This document shows positions 2,888 through 44,525 of a stretch of 64,000 bases of DNA, piece after piece (within the stretch, counting starts at the first letter, position 1; each line of letters opens with the position of its first letter). Origin of the DNA: Topomyia yanbarensis (taxonomy: Eukaryota; Arthropoda; Insecta; Diptera; Culicidae); assembly GCF_030247195.1 (NCBI RefSeq), contig NC_080671.1, forward strand, positions 434,186,539 to 434,250,538. Direction: 5' to 3'. The position numbers and the translations under genes were made by a program. The notes under the pieces were generated by a model. It saw only the letters and a program-made list of their open reading frames with translations, had not been told where the DNA came from and did no database searches.

Positions 2888-3901
2888 TAGCCTGTGCACG
2901 ATGATGAAGCCGACAATGACCCCCACAGCGAACAGTGTCCACCAACACTGCCATTAAGCTGTGGAACAACACCCACAAACACGGCCCACAGCAAAAGTTA
3001 AGCCACGTCGACACGCCACACAGAGGAGTATTTAACCGAACAAGCTGGCCGAAAGTATATTTTCAAAAACCATTATCAAGGACATTATATTATATCATAA
3101 TATTCCCTAGTAATTTCTGCATTAGATGGCAACCACGTTGCGTGTATTTACTAAAGTTTGGCAACGCTGTTCACTGTCCAAGGTAGGGGTTTTTTAATAC
3201 TCTAGGCTGTTTTAAAGCTGCGCGTGGAAACAAAATGTTCCAAACATTAGTGATTCGAATAGTTTCTACTCAAATATCCTATTTTTTAAAAAAAAACCAA
3301 GGTCAGGGTCATATTTTGGTGTAGACCGATCCATATACTCGAAAAATATTAGTCTTATTAAACTTAAATACAAAGAAAACAAAATCCGCCATTTTCTCAC
3401 TTCTCAAAATTGAAAAAGTTCATGTTCCCAATCCGTCCCAGTGAAAACTCTTGTGCCCTGATTAAGTTTAATACAAATACTACTAGATCGGCGAAAAAAC
3501 TTGCGCATAATTGCTCCTTTTTGAATGTGAGCTATTTGAAAAATTAGATATTTTTGACATTTTTCCTTGTTTCATTACATTGTCCGTGCGCAGTTCAAAC
3601 TTTTACAAGGGTATTTCTTTTCGAAATAATGTGTAATTCTTGGCAAGATTTAGGTTTAGTTGGCTGGGAAACAAAATGATGGTTTTATTGAACCAGAGCG
3701 CTTCCACTTCCACCTTTGACAGTTAACAGCGTTGTCAAACTTTAGTAAATACACGCAACGTGGTTGCCATCTAATGCAGAAATTACTAGGGAATATCATG
3801 ATATAATATAATGTAAGTTTTTGAAAATTTGACTTTCGGCCAGCTTTTTCGGTCAAATACTCCTCTGTGCGCCAGTCGGCTACGTCAGTGAGCACAGGCT
3901 A
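2888..3901. mobile_element. Fold-back DNA element, about 1 kb
   Basis: The ends are inverted copies: TAGCCTGTGCACGATGATGA at the left against the complement of TCAGTGAGCACAGGCTA at the right. Inside, roughly 180-bp arms at 3008-3185 and 3715-3890 are close inverted copies of each other. Open frames over the arms are therefore mirror images and not evidence of genes. The middle (3190-3710) is unrelated AT-rich DNA. I could not settle the target duplication; flanks are AATT-rich. It is a nonautonomous DNA transposon with no transposase, superfamily unknown. Confidence 0.7.
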
Positions 3902-6340: not shown

Positions 6341-6374
6341 GAGTCCCACACAGTGGCAATACACTACAAGTCAG

Positions 6375-16249: not shown

Positions 16250-17253
16250 TTCATCGAAAGAGGTCACGGATTTAACCCTTAAATGCGCAATGTTGTTTTG
16301 AAACAATATTGCGAAAACCATCTCAAAATTATCATAGTAATGTATCAAAGCTGTGAGACAATTTTCAGAAAGTTTTAGAAAAATTGGTTTGCGCCTTTAA
16401 GGGTTAATCACTGTTCTACAGTTTAATTGCGGAAGCATTATCCCGAAAATCGATTCGTTTAAAATCTTAGACACTTCCACGATTTTAATATTATTCGCTT
16501 GGATCGAGAAGACTCTTCGCAGAAGTACTTTTGAAGATTAAAAAGTGCTATTCTTTCATTCGAATCGACCTCTCCTCGACACCAGGCATTGAAGTTGTCG
16601 CTTGCCAAACCAGAATAAAAGGCAAAGACCTTTGCATTGCTTCCACCTATATTCCTCCTAGAGCCTCAGTTAGCCACCAACGGCTTTGCGATATTGCGGA
16701 ACTCCTCCCCGCACCGAGGCTACTTTTAGGTGATTTCAGCTCCCACGGTACGGCATGGGGTTGCCTTCATGACAATAATCGATCACTCCATGAGCTTTGC
16801 GACAGTTTCAATATGATCATTTTGAACACGGGTGAAATGACACGGATTTCAGCCCGTCCAACGCGTCCGAGTGCCTTAGACCAGTCCCTCTGTTCGACAT
16901 CGCTGCGGTTAGATTGCATGTCGAAGGTAGTCTTTGATCCTCACGGCAGAGACTATCTTGCTAACAGTTCAGGACCACCTCACACAAAATATTGATTGGA
17001 AGAGCTACACGTCCGCGATATTCGATAAAATCGAGTCCACTCAAGAGCTTCCTCCGGAGGAAGAGTGCGGGTTGCTGGCTGGCTTGATTCTCGATACCGC
17101 GATTCAAGCTCAGACTAAACGCATACCAGACGCGAACTCACGCGGGCGTCCTCCCAATCCATGGTGGGACAAAGAGTGCTCAGACGTGTACGCGGAGAAG
17201 GCCGCTGCGTATAAGACCTTCCGGGACGATGGGCTGCTAGCTAGCTACCGACA
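16242..17253 (+). pseudogene. Copy 1 ORF2, endonuclease part
   Basis: The ATG at 16242 overlaps the ORF1 stop. The frame MANSSKEVTDL is cut by a TTAA-flanked MITE and resumes as ITVLQ.NCGSIIPK, the first endonuclease motif. The APE-type endonuclease continues with LCIASTYIPP, LLLGDFSSHGTAWG (catalytic box, with Ser for the usual Asn) and VFDPHGRD where SDH would be expected, so the last catalytic Asp/His pair is damaged. The linker TQNIDWKSYTSAIFDKIES follows in another frame and runs to GLLASYR at 17250, where T2 interrupts it. Confidence 0.75.
16276..16403. mobile_element. piggyBac-type MITE (128 bp)
   Basis: Flanked by TTAA on both sides (16272-16275 and 16404-16407) with inverted ends CCCTTAAATGCGCAA and the complement of TTGCGCCTTTAAGGG. 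TTAA duplication and CCC-type termini identify a piggyBac-like MITE. Deleting the element and one TTAA restores the codons GAT TTA ATC ACT in the endonuclease frame, confirming exact boundaries. Confidence 0.85.
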
Positions 17254-18184
17254 CACAGTGGCACCTGTTTATACAAAGTTGTGACAAAATTATAAAAATT
17301 GGCCTATGTGCCTAAAAATTGGGGTTTTAACTAATTTTGGGTCGCTGAATCCATTTCTGCTATCAGTTTTGAAATTCCATATTTCTATTTTTCGACAACT
17401 TTTATGTAAACCCATTTGAAAGTGTTGGTCGTTAAAGGGTTAATATATACGTTAATCGCAGTAGCCAATCACATCGGATAGCAGAAATGGTTGACGAAAC
17501 TAGTAAAAATTACTAATTTTTCAGTAATATTATGTTGTTTAGGCAACCACTTTGCAAGGAGATTTATGAGCTACAGGGCGTCTCCATATGGGTATTTTCA
17601 AAAACATAGATACGTTTCTCTTAGTCTCAAATTTGCCGAAAATAGCCAACAAAATCGATACATATGGATATGGTAACTTCGGCGCAAAAATGCGCAAGAT
17701 GAGGCCTATATATCTTGAAACTACACTAAATTTTGAGTCAGATTCATAATAAGTGACCCATGGGAGACCATCTCAAAAATTGGAAGACGTATACAAATAA
17801 ATTATCGATATGACATTGAATTTCTTAATTGAATTTTCTTGGTGCAGAATAGAGGTTAATCATTTCTACGCTTAAAGCTTACATCTATAGTCTAGCATAT
17901 TCATTATTCTTTCCAAAGAACTTAAAATAATTGCAATCGGCCATGTAGTTCTTGAGATATCGCCATTTGAAGTTCTATGGTACTAACAAATTTAATGAAT
18001 TGAATTGAACAGAAATCCTCGACATCACTTGCTTCAACGACATGTTAAAAATTCATTTTAAATCCGGTTATCTTAAAATTTTGAGATACTTTTATTCAAA
18101 CTGAGAGAAAAAATAAAATAAATATTTACAAGAGATTTACAAGACATTGATTTTTGGGGTTTTGTCACTCGTCGTGCCACTGTG
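17254..18184. mobile_element. Transib-like nonautonomous element T2 (931 bp) with 12/23-type ends
   Basis: The ends are perfect 11-bp inverted repeats, CACAGTGGCAC and GTGCCACTGTG. From the left end: CACAGTG, 23 bp, ACAAAATTA (17284-17292). From the right end, read inward: CACAGTG, 12 bp, ACAAAACCC (complement of 18157-18165). The host codons Arg-Gln-Tyr, known from copy 2 (CGACAGTAT), are rejoined as CGACA|GTAC if one terminal G is assigned to the host, so no target duplication is visible. The interior is AT-rich with one inverted pair around CCATTTCTGCTATC (17350, 17480) and no transposase. Confidence 0.8.
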
Positions 18185-20250
18185 TACGCGATGGCGGAAA
18201 CGCGCATGCAGAGTTTGATAAAAACCAAAAAATGTAGCCACTGGCGCCGGTTCGTCGACGGACTAACGAAAGAAACATCGATGAGCACTTTTTGGGGCAC
18301 AGCCCGGCGCTTACGAAACCGAAACAGTTCCAACGAGAGCGTAGAATATTCAAACCTTTGATTATTCGATTTTGTCAAGAGGATTTGTCCGGATTCCGCC
18401 CCGGTACAGAAGAGCTAGGGCAATTTATTTAAAAAGGTTCTTGAGGGTAACATTGTCCGTCATGACTAGAGGCAAGTGAAGGTAATCGCCATCTAAAAAC
18501 CAGTAAAACTAGCCTCCGACCACAACTCGTATCGACCGATTGCAATGCTGTCCTGTATCCGAAAGTTGTTCGAAAAATGATCTTGTTTCACCTCGACAAT
18601 TCGGTTGAAACAAATGGCTTACTCTCAGATATTCAATTTGGCAAAGGGACGAACGATTGTCTTACGTTGCTCTTAATATAAATTCAAATAGCCTACGCGT
18701 GCAAATAACAGATGGCATCAATTTTCCTATATATAGAGGGGGCTTTTGATTTAGTTTCTATCAAATTTTTTTCTAAGAAGCTTCACAAGCATGGTCTTTC
18801 ACCGACTCTAAACAACTTTTTGATAAACTTGTTGTCTGAAAAAAACATGCATTTTTCGCATAGTGACTTATCGACATCACGAATTAGCTACATGGGTCTT
18901 CCCCAGGGCTCATGTCTAAGCCCCTTTCTCTATAACTTTTACGTGAATGACATGGTCGAATGTCTTGTCAGTTTCTAAACGCTAAGGCAGCTTGCAGATG
19001 ACGGTGTGGTCTCTATTACAGGTCCTAAAGGCGCCGATCTGCAAGGACCATTACAAGATACCTTGGACAATTTGTCTGCTTGGAATTGGGTACCGAATCC
19101 TCAAAGGAGAAAACTAAGCTAGTCGTATTTTCAAGGAAGCGTGAAACAGTTCAACTACTATTTTAATTAAATGGGTCAAACTATTGCTCAGGTTTTAACT
19201 TCCAGGTATTTCGGGGTATGATTCGACTCTAAGGGTACCTGGGGATGTTACATTAGGTATCTGAAACAGAAGTGGCAACAAAGAATCAAATTTCTTCGTA
19301 CAACAACTGGAACATAGTGGGGCGCCTACGTATAACACCTGATTAGGTTGTACCAAACAACGATGTTGTCGGTGGAGATTGAGGGTTTCTGCTTTCGCTA
19401 CACTGCGAACATTCATTTTATCAAACTAGAGAGAATCCAGTATTATTGTTTGCGAATTGCCTTGGGCTACCTGCATTCGACCCATACAATAAGTCTCGAA
19501 GTTCTGGCGCGCGTTCTTCTGCTGAAAAATCGAATTTAGGATCTCTCATATCAATGCCTCATCCGATGAGATATCTTGAACCCGGTGGTGATTTAAATTT
19601 CGGCAGCCCTCGTGGAACAACGTTAGGCTTGGGTGCCGGCTTCACTCTATTATTCCAAAAGATGTCTACGAAACCTTGATTTACGTGGATGGATGAGGGT
19701 CTTATTATGTCGTGGATCATGTCAAATCCTTACTCGTCAGATACGCATCTTCGTCGTATTGGATTTGTGAAAAGCGGTCTCTGTACTTATAGGGATGGAC
19801 ACCACGACATCAAGCATATTATCTGGACGTGCAACTAATATTGTGGTGTTAGGTCTCAGATATTGGCTTCCATTTGGGGTCGAGCAAGATCATCCAACGT
19901 TCCGTTTCAGAATTTAATAACAATCTGCGATCTTCCCTAAATGTCCCTCATCTATCTCTTCCTAAAAACAATCAATATACAAATATAGCCATGTTTCTCT
20001 TTTCCTCGTTCAGAGAAGTCCCCTCCAGTGGCACTAGCACTAGAGCGAAAATAATGAAACCGAATCATAAGAATCCCGCGACATTTGTATCATGGTTTTT
20101 AGGAAAAATTCGCATATATTACGAAAGCTTTCTATACGAAACCTATTTGTAGCAAATATATTTTCTCAGTGCGGAAACGAGAGCCAAAACGCCTATATGT
20201 ATCAAACCAACCCCTGTAGTCGGCACTTCTGCCGGCCTGTTCAGTCTACC
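18184..20250 (+). pseudogene. Copy 1 ORF2, reverse transcriptase part
   Basis: Reading continues after T2 as YAMAETRMQSLIKTKK, then HWRRFVDGLTKETSMSTFWG (RT N-terminal region) and SYRPIAMLSCIRKLF. The clearest block, 18712-18978, has FLYIEGAFDLVS (box A, with Asp altered in the usual FLDIKGAF), GLPQGSCLSPFLYNFYVNDM (box B) and then, after a stop, LRQLADDGVVS (the DD catalytic pair). Thumb text KLERIQYYCLRIALG follows near 19420. C-terminal HHDIKHIIWTCN at 19800-19835 is the zinc-like end. At least eight stops or frameshifts. No RNase H could be read between thumb and C-terminus. Confidence 0.75.
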
Positions 20251-26320: not shown

Positions 26321-27971
26321 CACAGTGGCACGACTTAGAACAAAAGGTGGACTAAAGTCCAAACTTTGCCGAATAGGTTCAAATAGGACGGTTTTAGGTA
26401 ATATTGGTACGCTAAATTTGTTTTTGATTTTAAAAGATTTAAAAAATAAACATTTACCATTCATTAGGGTGTCTCAAAAATATACTTTTTTCGAAATCGT
26501 GCTTAAAATTTGTGTATATTAATTTTTGTACGCTAAATCGTTTGTGATATTAACACTTGTTAATAAAATTTTCATTATACATTAGGGTGGTTAAAAAATA
26601 ATTATTTTTTTTGTTAAGGTTCAAAATTTCTATTAAAGAAATTTTTGTGCGCTGAATTCCTATTTTGGTTATAAAGTAGAAATTAAATTTACTGCTTATT
26701 AGAGTGGCTCAAAAGTAAGTATATTATCTAAATCTCAAAAGTAAGTAAGCCTTTTATAATGATTTTTTTCAATAGTAATTTTGTAATTTATTTTTCATAT
26801 TGAAACGTATTGAATGACATCTCTTTATGGGGCTTCAGAAATTTACGTTGTTTTTACGGATCAAATAAGATGTGTTCGACTAATTTTTTTAATTCATTAG
26901 TGGGTTGCTTGATATGAAAACTACATTTTCCTTCATTTTCAAAACAAGCATTTTGAGCGTCTTAGTGGGATATTTAATTACATTCACTAATCTACAAGAT
27001 GGCTAACATTTTTTTTCGCAGGTGTGTTTTAAGTTACCTAGATTTCTTATTTCATATCTTAAATAAAAATGAAACCAAAATCCTTTTTACAAGCATATTT
27101 AAAAATGGTCTCTTTTTTAATTTCGCATACCCTTAAGTGTATATCAGTGCTATGCAAACTCGGCTCAAAATAGTCTCACCAAATGACTAAAACTCATCTG
27201 TGTACACTCAATTTGACAGTCATTGAGAAAATTAGCAAAAATATTTCCAGAAACATTTTATGACACATTTCAGATGGTTGAAAATATTTACTGATTTACT
27301 GATTACTGATTTTTAAACATTATCTCTAGATCACTAGTAAAAGCCTTGTAGATCATGCCCTCAATGCTATTTGAAAGTTGTGCATACATTTGTGTTATTA
27401 ATCTAGCTATAAAATGATTTTTCAAATTCAATATCAGTAATAACCATGCGTCTCCATTAACAGTGTTTTTAAATTTTGACTGTTTATCGCAAGTTTTCGC
27501 AAAACTAGCATACACTATTTTAAAGAGAAAATTAAAGGCTTTCGTATGAGTATAGTGTGATCGCGGGCATTCATGGGCGTCGTTGTTTTTATCGCATTAG
27601 AAGTTCGAATTCAATAAAAATTCATGACAAACAGTTATCTAAACACTAACTAAAGCAACTAATTGGTTTTTTTTTGGCAATTTTACGACGCAATTTTATG
27701 ACACGGATAATTTTGGTGAAGTGATGCAACGCATAAAATCAACCTTTTCTTTGAAAAACGAAAATAACCCTGTGCAGTTCCTACGGTCAAATAATGCAAA
27801 AAAACACTTGAGTTATGCCCTTCAAAAAGCTGCCAAAAATTCATTTCACGTTCAAATCACCTAAAATCTCGCAAAAAAGTCTCTGGTGGCTCAGCTGATA
27901 CGAGAAAAATACTAGTGAGAATATCGCATGACCTTCATATATGGACTTAAGTCTGTGCTCGTCCCACTGTG
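26321..27971. mobile_element. Transib-like nonautonomous element T3 (1,651 bp)
   Basis: The left end is CACAGTGGCACGACTTAG and the right end the complement of CACAGTGGGACGAGCAC. A perfect 5-bp duplication GAACA flanks it (26316-26320, 27972-27976), and its removal rejoins the retroelement sequence. The left end reads CACAGTG, 12 bp, ACAAAAGGT; no matching nonamer is seen at the right. Near the left the words ATTAGGGTG, ATTAGGGTGG and ATTAGAGTGG start at 26463, 26581 and 26698, and AATTTTTGT(A/G)CGCT(A/G)AAT also recurs, giving a decayed tandem of about 117 bp. No transposase frame is present. Confidence 0.85.
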
Positions 27972-39110: not shown

Positions 39111-40164
39111 ATTAAAATATAATTTAGTAGTAGTCATTAGGTGCACTATACATTCATTCGGTGACTTTTGGACCGATCAGTCGATCTTTCCAGTCCGTGC
39201 AGTGCAACATTATAAAGAATAGTGCTAATCCGCTATCAAGGTTACAGCATTAATTTCCTTATTTTGTGTTTTTGCGCGTTTTCCGTTATTTGGCCAGCAG
39301 AGCAGTGAAGTAGTGTTTCTTTTCTAGTAGGCCGCCTAAATACCGTTATGTATACAAGTTAAGTAGCGCTCTAATATTACATTTTCCATTCTTGTCTATA
39401 ATACTAACCTGCACTGCGCAATATGAGTTTGCAAAAATGACTTCCGCTGATAATGATTTGCCTCAACTCAAGATGGATGTCGAAATAAAATCGCCTCCCC
39501 GCACTATGGGTCACAAGGGCGGTTTTTCGGTACAAAAATCAATAACTCCCAAACCGTTCATTTTAGAGAAATTTTGTCTGAAAGAATATTTTTGGAAATT
39601 AAATTGGCTTTCTTTTAAAGTAAAATGTAACTAGGGTGGTCCTCTCGAACATTCTTTTCGAAAAAATATTTTTCGAGCTAAATGGTGTAGCAAGGTACTT
39701 ACTTCAGCAAAGTTGTAGAAAAATAATTTTCAAGTAACATTTTCAAATGCATCAAAGTTATAGCATTATTGGTTTTCATGCTATAATTATTTTTCTTCTT
39801 TAACCTAGGGTATTTCTGAAAAAGTCAGTTTTTTAGCTATAACTTTTTAAATAGTTAGTCTATCTTAATACTCTCTATGAAGCAATTTTAGTACTTTTCA
39901 TTGCGCATATTTTTGCTGAAGAATGTGAATCGATATCATTTTTCGTTATCGAGTTACGATCGTTTTTTTAAATAAAAATGATAGTTTTCAATGACCTCTA
40001 ACTCAGAAGGTTGCAAAAAGTAGCAGCTAAATTTGTACTTTTTCGAAAGTGCATCAAAAATACTATAAAGTATCTCAAAATCAACTTTTGCTTTTTTATC
40101 CTTCAGCGAAAAATGTTGACATCAACATTATGATCAAATTACATCAGCTTACGGCTGTTTTTAA

Positions 40165-41428
40165 CCCTTTCATGCCCAACTTTTTTCTAGTGCATGTAGG
40201 GTTTCAAAACTATTTTTCCTTGAAAACGGTTGGGTCAAGAAACACGAAAAGCCTATTTTCATAAAGATAGGTGCTTCCGGACTTGCCATCAACACGTCGA
40301 AAACAAAGTACATGATAGGAAGAGGTTCACGAGAAGAGAATGAGAACCGCCCGCTTCGAGTTTGCATCGGTGGCGACGAAATCGAGGTGGTTGAAGAGTT
40401 CGTGTACTTGGGCTCACTGGTGACTGCCGACAATGATACCAGCAGAGAGATTCGTAGACGCATCGTGGCAGGAAATCGTGCTTACTTTGGCCTCCGCAAG
40501 ACACTTCGGTCGAACAGAATTCGCCGTCGTACGAAGTTGACCATCTACAAGACGCTGATTAGACCGGTAGTTCTCTACGGGCACGAGACCTGGACCATGC
40601 TCGTGGAGGACCAACGCGCACTTGGTGTCTTCGAACGGAAAGTGCTGCGTACCATCTACGGTGGAGTGCAGATGGAAGACGGCACATGGAGACGGCGAAT
40701 GAACCATGAGTTGCATCAGCTGTTGGGGGAGCCGCCCATCTGTCATACCGCGAAAATCGGACGACTACGGTGGGCCGGGCACGTAGCCAGAATGTCGGAA
40801 AATAGCCCGGTGAAAACGGTTCTCAATTGCAATCCGACCGGTACAAGAAGACGTGGCGCGCAGCGAGCACGATGGATCGACCAGGTGGAAGACGATTTGC
40901 GGACCCTTCGCAGACTGCGTGGCTGGCGACGCGCGGCCATGGACCGAGTGGAATGGAGGAATCTTTTGTATACGGCACAGGCCACTTCGGCCTTAATCTG
41001 TTAATAAATAAAAAGGTGCTTCCATGGCAGTGCTAGAAGCTGGTCAATTTTTACCTTGTAATGCTCAATGCAATTCTCCTAGAATAATTACAATAGTCCA
41101 ATTACGTAGAAAACGTAGCCAACGACAGTCTAAATTGATAAGTTTTATCAGTTTTCAATAATATTGCACCATAACGAAGATATATGAAAAAATCATTTTC
41201 CGTCGTCAACGTAAACTATCCCTGGCAGCACTGCTCTATCGGAATCCAATCAGACTAATTACAATAACTTCAGTTCTAGAGCTGATCCTTGTAACTGTAA
41301 TTACTGAAATTAAAGGCAATAATCACATTAATGAGCCTTACTTGTTTTTGTGAGCAAATCTCGCCTCAATCAAAAGTTATAGCTGTTTAAAAACGTTGTT
41401 GTCCACAAACAACATGGGCATGAATGGG
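40165..41428. mobile_element. piggyBac-type MITE nested in T4, carrying an RTE
   Basis: TTAA at 40161-40164 and 41429-41432; ends CCCTTTCATGCCCAAC and the complement of CATGGGCATGAATGGG, matching over about 14 bp with one or two differences. TTAA duplication with CCC termini indicates a piggyBac-like MITE. Without the RTE insert (40279-41013 plus duplication) it is about 520 bp. Its palindromic CATGCCCA words resemble other TTAA MITEs in mosquitoes. Confidence 0.75.
40279..41013 (+). pseudogene. RTE-clade retrotransposon, 5'-truncated 3' end
   Basis: The open frame is uninterrupted from the first base of the insertion to TAA at 41002-41004 (241 codons). It starts GLAINTSKTKYM (the RTE palm-to-thumb motif), then EEFVYLGSLVT, RIVAGNRAYFGLRK, YKTLIRPVVLYGHETWTM and GRLRWAGHVARM, all typical of RTE elements such as mosquito JAM1. 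The 3' UTR is only about 9 bp (TAAATAAAA), a known RTE trait. A 10-bp duplication AGGTGCTTCC flanks it (40269-40278, 41014-41023). No reverse-transcriptase catalytic box is included. The intact frame indicates a recent insertion into the MITE. Confidence 0.9.
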
Positions 41429-41823
41429 TTAAGGGCCTGGTCATCGCCATTTAGCACCTGCTTTACTAGATCAAAAAGTCGAGTTTTCAAATGATTTTTT
41501 GAGCTTGTCAAATATATGTACACAAATATTGAAAACGTTAGGCTCAGGCAGATATTTATTTTACTATTCTACATAACTATTTTATTATAATCGACATCAT
41601 CATAATTATTATAATCACAATTATCAACATCATCAGCATCGTCGTCGCTATAGTTATCCGAATCGTGTTTCTTTTCCTAAAGATTAAGTTTCCTTTTCCT
41701 TTTCAAGCACAATTCATTCACTCGGTTTTTTGGACGGCCTATAATTTTGAACATTACACAAACAGTATAAAATGTAGAGCATGTTACTTTAAAAAGCGAA
41801 TGAATTAAGGATTACCCTTCATT

Positions 41824-42141
41824 CTATTCTGAGTAAGCGATGAATTTCTGTGAATGCTGGTTTGGGAGGAAGTACATTTTTTTTGGAACTGTTAACAGCT
41901 TCTCAAAATATTTCGAATTTTTATCGAGCACTTTCGTCTCAATTTGATGACTGTCTTTCCAAAATCGATCAAACCTTTTACATGTTTTAATTGCTACAGC
42001 TTTTGCATTCCGAGCGAAATTCTTTTTTTCATTTTCTCCCACATCAAATGATCTCATAATTTTCTCAAACCCAGCCTTTATTTTCTTTCTATTTTCGCCT
42101 TTGGTCACTTTCCAGAGATCGAATGATTTTCTTTTATCCAT
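41824..42141 (-). CDS. Unrecognised 105-aa frame inside T4
   Basis: Minus-strand frame starting MDKRKSFDLWKVTKG. It is rich in Lys/Glu/Phe with amphipathic helices (KKIKAGFEKIMRSFDV, then CKRFDRFWKDSHQIETKVL). It is the only non-repeat frame of note in the unique core of T4. I see no Transib/RAG1 catalytic D-D-E context and no zinc motif. The repeated pattern of aromatic and basic residues resembles small DNA-binding or coiled-coil proteins, but this is a guess. It could be an exon of a captured or element-borne gene, or chance in an A-rich strand (the coding strand is A-rich, which favours long Lys/Glu frames). Confidence 0.3.
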   Translation of the reverse strand: MDKRKSFDLWKVTKGENRKKIKAGFEKIMRSFDVGENEKKNFARNAKAVAIKTCKRFDRFWKDSHQIETKVLDKNSKYFEKLLTVPKKMYFLPNQHSQKFIAYSE

Positions 42142-42645
42142 TTTAACGGATAATAATACAAAGCACTACACGCGTTCATCAAAGCAGTCGTCGGCTACTG
42201 CGATTCGATACATGAATGGGATTGATACCAATTAAACTGTCACGACTCGTGGTGTTGTTGTTTATATATGACAACGAAGGACAAAAAAGCAAAAGTTGAT
42301 TTCGAGATATTTGATAGTATTTTTTATGCATTTTCGAAAGAGTACAAATTTAGCTGCTACTTTTTGCAACCTTCTGAGTTAGAGGTCATTGAAAACTATC
42401 ATTTTTATTTAAAAAAATGATCGTAACTCGATAACGAAAAATGATAACGATTCACATTCTTAAGCAAAAATATGCGCAATGAAAAGTACTAAAATTGCTT
42501 CATAGAGAGTATTAAGATAGACTACCTACTTAAAAAGTTATAGTTAAAAAACTGACTTTTTCAGAAACACCCTAAGTTAAAGAATAAAAATAATTATAAC
42601 ATGAAAACCGATAGTGCTATAACTTTGATGCATTTGAAAATGTTT

Positions 42646-43547
42646 CATATTTGGAGAAAAAAATTGTTCTACACATACACACAACTTTTTGAGTAAAAAA
42701 CTTATTTGTCTTGAAATACCTCTAACTTTAAAAGTATGTTTTGTATCTTAAATGTTTTAGTTCCGTTCGAAAGGTGAGAAAATTTCGCATTGAGTGATGT
42801 CCTCACATGTTTCAGCTAATGAGTTTAAGTAGCCTTTTCAAAGTAATTTATTGAAAATTAAACAATTTTGAACGATTTTTCGTTCATTTCTTGAAAATCC
42901 TAATAGTTAACCTCATCATTTTAATAATTCAGATTGTTAGTCTTGATGAGCTGCTTAATTCGTTCTTTCACATGATACACTTACCTTTTCTTATTTTCAT
43001 GATTTTGGGTTATTCAACTTGGATATTTTTATTTCATTTTCACTAGTACTAGCTCTAATTGAAAAATTATGGCACTTATTGTACTTTTTTTCTTTTTATT
43101 CGAAAGCCAGGAAAATTTGACAGTGAAAAATGTATTAATACCTTTCAGTTAAGTGAATTTAGTATTATTTCAAAAGTAAATTAGTTTAAAGTTAGTGCTA
43201 TTATTGACATTTTCGTTAATTTTCTTAAAATAGTAAATAATAAACATCACCATTATTATTATGAAAATAATGCATCTCAGCAAGTTCTACAGTTCTTTCT
43301 TTGACTCCATTCAATTATCTCTTTTGGTTTCGACGCAAAATCGTGTTTATCACATCGTTTCATATGGAAAAATAACGATTTCGAACCCACTACATTTGTG
43401 GCGAACTCATGCTGTGTTAACTATTAAATAGCAGCAAAATGAAAAGAGATTTAGACAAAGTGTCAAATAAAAAGTTATAGAGAACATTAAGGGGCATCAA
43501 ATGAACAATAGTAACGATAAATTTTATTGATTAATAATTAGAATAAT
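42646..43547. repeat. Recipient copy of a 902-bp near-identical block
   Basis: Matches 45954-46855 at a constant offset of 3308 bp, with one difference seen (TTATGGCACTT here, TTATGACACTT there). It lies in the right inverted repeat of T4 and is followed by AATT and then a 141-bp second copy of T4 sequence: 43552-43692 repeats 42506-42646. No inverted ends are seen on the block. It has no coding content. Confidence 0.9.
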
Positions 43548-44525
43548 AATTAGAGTATTAAGATAGACTACCTACTTAAAAAGTTATAGTTAAAAAACTG
43601 ACTTTTTCAGAAACACCCTAAGTTAAAGAATAAAAATAATTATAACATGAAAACCGATAGTGCTATAACTTTGATGCATTTGAAAATGTTTCTTGAAAAA
43701 TATTTTTCTACAACTTTGCTGAAGTAAGTACCTTGCTATACCATTTCGTTCGAAAAATATTTTTTCGAAAAGAATGTTCGAGAGGACCACCCTAGTTACA
43801 TTTTACTTTAAAAGAAAGCCAATTTTATTCCCACAAATATTCTCTCAGACATAATTTCTCTAAAATGAACGGTTTGGAAGATATTGATTTTTGTACCAAA
43901 AAACCGCCCCTGTGACCCATAGTGCCCCGGCTGAAACTGTACCCACTTTCTGCATCCGAACCTTTTGTAATTTTCTTCCGGACCATCGGCAGATATATTT
44001 GAATGTGTCGCAGATTTCTCGAGTTCTGACGGAACAATGTTCGGCCGTGACAAAAATTTCGAAAGTTCACTCTGACAAGCTTCGTGTGGTTCTAAATAGT
44101 TTAAAACAGGTGATACTGCTGGTTAGGGGTCCTTTACGAAGAAGTACAGTGTATTTGTACCAGCAAATCGTGCGGAAATCTGTGGGGTCGTCTCCGATTC
44201 GAGTTTGAATTGAGCGGATCTGCTGACACATGGGGTTAGATGTTTTAAAGACCCCATGCTTCCGCAATTGGGACACATAGTCCCCCTATGCATTGTAGCA
44301 ATAAGGTTGTGAGACATACGGTGGAAATCATGTAGATGATTGCTGTGGAAAGGATGTTGAAAAGTGTTTCTACTGTGGGAGAAATTTTTGCATATTTTCC
44401 TCACATGTCCCGCATACAAACAGCGCGCTGAACGTTCCCTTCAGGGACACACGATCTTTTGTACAAATGTTAAAGATAGCTAAGCCACCGACTTTTACAA
44501 ATATTGAAACACGAACCGAAAAAGA

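Follow-up and report, generated by a model that had tools for sequence, protein, structure and literature searches.

How the 12/23 rule arose is the question touched by T2, a short transposon in the 64,000-nucleotide stretch of Topomyia yanbarensis DNA analysed here (the window), both ends of which carry the heptamer CACAGTG followed by a second box, set at 23 bp on the left and at 12 bp on the right. With the V(D)J recombination signal sequence (RSS) pair T2 shares the heptamer, the spacer lengths of 12 and 23 bp and a right box agreeing at eight of nine positions with the nonamer consensus ACAAAAACC (as given in the accessible part of PMC8289069); it differs from that pair in a left box that scores just 6/9, in an additional box at spacer 12 and in moving as a transposon with target duplications.

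Anatomy and insertion site of T2

The features of T2 are collected in Table 1, and its coordinates, both heptamers, the 23-bp spacer with a 6/9 box on the left and the 12-bp spacer with an 8/9 box on the right were all re-read as the initial annotation had given them. Left and right ends are identical over the outermost 11 bases, and further inward GTGACAAAATTATAAAAAT and GTGACAAAACCCCAAAAAT align best at an offset of exactly +11 with a score of 11, which is reached at any offset by 15 of 2000 shuffles. Boxes scoring at least 6/9 and at least 8/9 at exactly 23 and 12 bp were met with a frequency of 2e-5 in 200,000 random window position pairs, a frequency that rises to 0.0047 of random window position pairs when at least 6/9 is accepted at both places with a tolerance of ±1 bp. 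The description of the left end as 23-RSS-like stood in part: the box ACAAAATTA does lie at spacer 23, but the A-rich box ACAAAGTTG at spacer 12 allows another reading, and the 23-type reading is therefore not the sole one. No transposase-like frame is seen by eye in T2, the longest frame wholly within the element having 77 residues.

T2 interrupts host sequence that we take to be non-LTR retrotransposon coding sequence. A paralogous, uninterrupted copy of this host sequence starts at about 44544 in the window and has no insert at the T2 site, where it reads CGACA-G-TA; compared with the flanks of T2 (CGACA and TACGC), this means that one base was lost, not five duplicated. T2 itself is thus without a target-site duplication (TSD), and a later deletion taking one duplicate would be a simple explanation for the missing repeat.

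Table 1. Positions in the window of the T2 and T3 elements and of their terminal features
Feature	Positions	Strand	Remarks
T2, whole element	17254-18184	.	931 bp; non-autonomous Transib, without transposase frame
Host sequence broken by T2, left part	16531-17253	+	resumes at 18185
T2 left flank CGACA	17249-17253	+	right flank differs, reading TACGC at 18185-18189
T2 left heptamer CACAGTG	17254-17260	+	
T2 left spacer, 23 bp	17261-17283	+	equal length in the majority of 20 family left ends
T2 extra A-rich box ACAAAGTTG at spacer 12, left end	17273-17281	+	5/9 to nonamer consensus
T2 left nonamer-like box ACAAAATTA	17284-17292	+	6/9
T2 right nonamer-like box ACAAAACCC	18157-18165	-	8/9
T2 right spacer, 12 bp	18166-18177	-	
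T2 right heptamer CACAGTG	18178-18184	-	
T3, whole element	26321-27971	.	1651 bp; 23 left / 12 right; TSD GAACA (perfect)
T3 left second box ACTAAAGTC at spacer 23	26351-26359	+	
T3 right second box ACTTAAGTC at spacer 12	27944-27952	-	

The T2 family and other elements of the window

Relatives of T2 were sought in the source assembly of about 1.168 Gb, where 40 of 1474 first-look candidates were scored and yielded at least 70 matches, a figure that is not a copy number. Thirty family loci were fetched, T2 (L001) included and with one sequence represented on two contigs (L021 and L022), and among these the left end is complete in 20 and the right end in 28. Symmetric spacers among the relatives had been named in the initial annotation as the outcome that would speak against it; instead, both majorities agree with the 23/12 spacing of T2, reading CACAGTG-GCACCTGTTCATACAAAGTTGTG-ACAAAATTA on the left and CACAGTG-GCACGACGAGTG-ACAAAACCC on the right. 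At spacer 23, a box scoring 6 or 7 of 9 is present in all but three of the 20 left ends (17 ends; the others 5, 3 and 2), the right box at spacer 12 scores 8 of 9 in 24 of the 28 (7 in three, 6 in one), and the A-rich box at spacer 12 of the left end is likewise kept in the family majority, with a score of 5 in 15/20. Eighteen near-full copies diverge by 4.9-8.3% from the majority, T2 by 4.9%. Allowing at most one mismatch, the 12-end pattern of T2 occurs 407 times in the genome and its reversed control not once, and a search of IMG/VR gave 0 matches.

Across the 18 two-ended loci, the 5-bp duplication is exact in 13, off by one base in two and mismatched in three (T2 among them), the majority being CGNCG. 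The description of T2 as Transib-like is therefore borne out by the CACAGTG ends of the family majority and by CGNCG-like duplications in 13/18 two-ended loci. Both T2 and the family majority have the Transib superfamily end, starting with CAC and forming an RSS-heptamer-like 7-mer; the 5-bp GC-rich duplication of that superfamily is found in the T2 family, not in T2 itself. With boxes at 23 and 12 that are conserved in its family, T2 falls into the 12/23-asymmetric group. Assignment to another superfamily is ruled out by the 5-bp duplications together with the HzTransib-like transposases described below, and T2 is a non-autonomous Transib element.

A second 23/12 element of the window, T3, has the ends CACAGTG-23-ACTAAAGTC on the left and CACAGTG-12-ACTTAAGTC on the right. 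Its inner ends, too, align best at +11 (4/2000 shuffles reach the score), and both ends are kept in 10 sampled genome copies, picked from 46 matches, with an exact duplication around nine of the ten. The second box of T3 is ACTWAAGTC, 5-6/9 to the V(D)J nonamer and better described as the near-palindrome GGACTWAAGTCC than as that nonamer. On sequence grounds, the feature that recurs among the families is the spacing and not the nonamer, because the left box of T2 (6/9) and the box of T3 (5-6/9) match the latter weakly. T3 also contains an internal direct repeat with a period of about 120 bp (blastn self-match 72%).

The window was scanned for exact duplications flanking CAC...GTG ends with at least 11 of 14 terminal bases matching, which gave three elements at k=5, one at k=3 and none at k=4, 6, 7 or 8. 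A match to CACAGTGGCAA at 6349 was set aside, no partner end being seen. The S element (39502-43924) is a Transib-type element of 4423 bp with 374-nt arms, the TSD CCCCG and symmetric ends reading CACTATG-23-ACAAAAATC on both sides; its interior holds a reverse-transcriptase-like frame at 40312-41004, named by eye, and a minus-strand frame of 105 aa at 41827-42141, for which no PDB, Pfam or protein match was obtained. M851 (3019-3869), 851 bp in length, has symmetric CACAGAGGAG ends and the TSD CGCCA, and a relative bearing a transposase (L091) resembles it at the 3' end.

Transposase-carrying relatives and the offset between ends

Transib transposases abound in the genome, as seen from a RAG1 profile search and from further searches. 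The former, a six-frame search with RAG1 PF12940, gave weak matches, none of which reached the cut-off (best E 0.0028); the frames to which they led are as long as 718 codons. The 718-codon frame (L058) matches HzTransib 6pqn at 1.3e-116 and RAG1/RAG1L structures weakly, and scores 27.1 bits against Pfam RAG1 PF12940 at a cut-off of 25. The transposases found resemble HzTransib far better than RAG1 structures. Of 657 protein matches, 120 were listed, and those relatives that bear a name in the list are insect proteins.

Two transposase-carrying families have the 12/23 layout, and in both the 12-end lies upstream of the gene. The T3-type element at C1:71585730-71589542 has a 5' 12-end, a 3' 23-end and the TSD CGATG on both sides, and its stop-free frame of 642 codons, at C1:71586726-71588651, matches HzTransib 6pqn over residues 157-608 with an E of 2.5e-110. 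Within this frame D254, D358 and E567 align with 6pqn chain residues 109, 208 and 419, so that the three catalytic acidic positions are kept; the catalytic residues of HzTransib are named D126, D225 and E436 in the accessible part of PMC6941560, with which a constant shift of 17 would equate the chain residues. Pfam gave no family at 0.01 for this transposase. An identical frame is present at C3:61987660-61989585, and a further T3-type relative at C3:104600893-104605040, its frame decayed, is flanked left and right by the TSD GAGTG. The second transposase family (L112/L114) is represented by C3:319461023-319466988, also with a decayed frame, which is flanked on both sides by the TSD CACAG and has the ends CACAGTG-12-CCAAAACCC (5') and CACAGTG-23-ACAAAACCT (3'). 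A second copy of this type on C2 (L114/L122) has like 12/23 ends and no matching duplication adjoining. In L122 (G000:C2:100493300-100496600) CATTG flanks the 3' end and recurs 8 bp outside the 5' end (CATTG-TTTTAAAC-CACAGTG), as a would-be duplication that is oddly displaced.

A further locus, L100 (G000:C283:14050-15550), has a 3' end CACAGTG-12-ACAAAACGC adjoining a decayed Transib transposase; its other end was looked for and not found, and a 23-type end there would give L100 the reverse polarity of the other two transposase families. The autonomous partner of T2 foreseen in the initial annotation was not found. The two transposase-carrying 12/23 families have its layout but not its end sequence, and a by-eye comparison with the listed transposase matches placed none near the first 100 listed of the 407 12-ends.

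For the comparison of offsets, the first 20 transposase 3' flanks were read, ten of which have a strict heptamer end and two more an end with one mismatch, and the heptamer was found in 5/9 further transposase 3' flanks. L083/L096 end in CACATAG, by homology. The 5' ends, sought for six families, were located for three (F1, F7 and F8). Nine families with both ends read were counted, and F9, F14, F17, L083/L096, L091, L100 and L116, each known from a single end, were dropped. An offset of +11, taken from the best inner alignment, was found for T2, for T3 with its transposase copies and for L112/L114; the offset is 0, that is, the ends are symmetric, in the S, M851, F1, F7, F8 and L060 families (S and M851 being classed as Transib-type from ends and duplications alone), and no value other than 0 or 11 occurs. 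These all-or-none offsets point to DNA helical phase as a probable constraint on spacing.

Readings of the asymmetry and their meaning

The 12/23 layout as such, which the initial annotation had implied to be new, is already in print. The accessible part of PMC8355894 lists as 12/23-asymmetric the Transib5 element of D. melanogaster and Transib2, TransibN1, N2 and N3 of An. gambiae, taking the list from an earlier paper and proposing a functional role for the asymmetry. As described there, these elements are like T2 in having Transib ends in which a heptamer is joined by a nonamer-like box, 12 ±1 bp away at one end and 23 ±1 bp away at the other, and T2 and T3 are therefore further members of a known layout. 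HzTransib of Helicoverpa zea (6pqn and five further PDB entries) resembles the T3-type transposase in its catalytic D, D and E and in making 5-bp duplications, but it differs from T2 in having symmetric ends whose likeness to the nonamer is slight or absent, as stated in the available portion of PMC8289069. ProtoRAG of amphioxus has asymmetric ends, as T2 does, and per the same portion its activity prefers its asymmetric 27/31 pair; unlike T2, it has a spacing of 27/31 bp, a RAG1-like/RAG2-like pair and ends that do not resemble RSSs. The literature searched, as far as its text was accessible, contained no report of a pairing-preference assay of any asymmetric Transib.

We consider it highly probable that T2 owes its mobility to a Transib transposase acting in trans, which recognises its bipartite 23/12 pair of ends, and that the asymmetry is inherited in its family. 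Each end would consist of the CACAGTG heptamer, at which the transposase would nick and form a hairpin, as proposed by analogy to HzTransib and RAG, and of a second box (ACAAAA...) that the transposase would contact and that lies 12 bp inward at the right end and, one helical turn deeper, 23 bp inward at the left end. A transposase recognising the 12/23 pair would then mobilise the element and insert T2-type elements into 5-bp, CGNCG-like targets. The inherited asymmetry would place the T2 family in a small group of Transib families of this genome, two of which carry a transposase. We infer that the spacing shapes synapsis and, as the initial annotation did, that the 12/23 pair may be preferred over equal ends.

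Three other accounts of the asymmetry were weighed. The offset of 11 bp may be a historical indel, inherited without any role in synapsis; the transposase would then need nothing beyond the outer ~15 bp, and the inner blocks would be alike because the copies share a recent ancestor. T2 copies are indeed just 4.9-8.3% off their majority, with an interior about as conserved as the ends, and PMC7204232, in the part available, argues that the RAG-like transposases of invertebrates depend on the outermost 15-17 bp and show rather little sensitivity to asymmetry. The two asymmetric transposases, moreover, pair with a support of 92 in a thin, unrooted tree (6 sequences, 232 columns), and one ancestral event could therefore explain all cases. 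Yet three groups whose second boxes differ share an offset of exactly 11, with 0 in the six others, and the two transposases are only about 46% identical, so that the 12/23 layout has outlasted much divergence; we regard this account as possible, if somewhat doubtful.

We think it improbable that the pair is functionally 12/12, with an A-rich box at spacer 12 in use at either end and the left box at 23 as an extra. Such boxes are present at the left ends of T2 (ACAAAGTTG), T3 (ACAAAAGGT) and L112 (ACAAAAGCT), and the conservation of this box in 15/20 T2 family left ends fits with their use; however, the longest inner match falls at +11, not at 0, in 6/6 pairs of three families, and the right box of T3 at 12 (ACTTAAGTC) is like the left box at 23 and unlike the left box at 12. 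That the asymmetry arose in T2 alone, by a private deletion or as a match by chance, as the missing duplication of T2 and the commonness of 6/9 A-rich 9-mers (1.8% of window positions) might suggest, has a negligible probability: it is refuted by the layout kept in the majority of 20 left and 28 right family ends and by the copies of T3, which repeats it.

A stronger proposal can be formulated, which we think rather unlikely. A Transib transposase lacking RAG2 would enforce true 12/23-type pairing on ends one helical turn apart, and the rule, or its basis in DNA geometry, would predate RAG2, having arisen in Transib when one of two ancestral 23-type ends lost a helical turn and, with it, the A-rich spacer-12 box. 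The accessible text of the literature searched describes no 12/23 family that has an open transposase frame downstream of its 12-end and is set beside symmetric families of one genome. The genome studied here combines symmetric Transibs, 12/23 families that lack a gene and a 12/23 family whose 642-codon transposase frame is open. Two identical copies of that frame exist, and the C1 copy, the one whose ends were read, is bounded by perfect target duplications. With symmetric, gene-less 12/23 and transposase-carrying 12/23 families in one genome, the role of spacing is therefore testable without RAG2.
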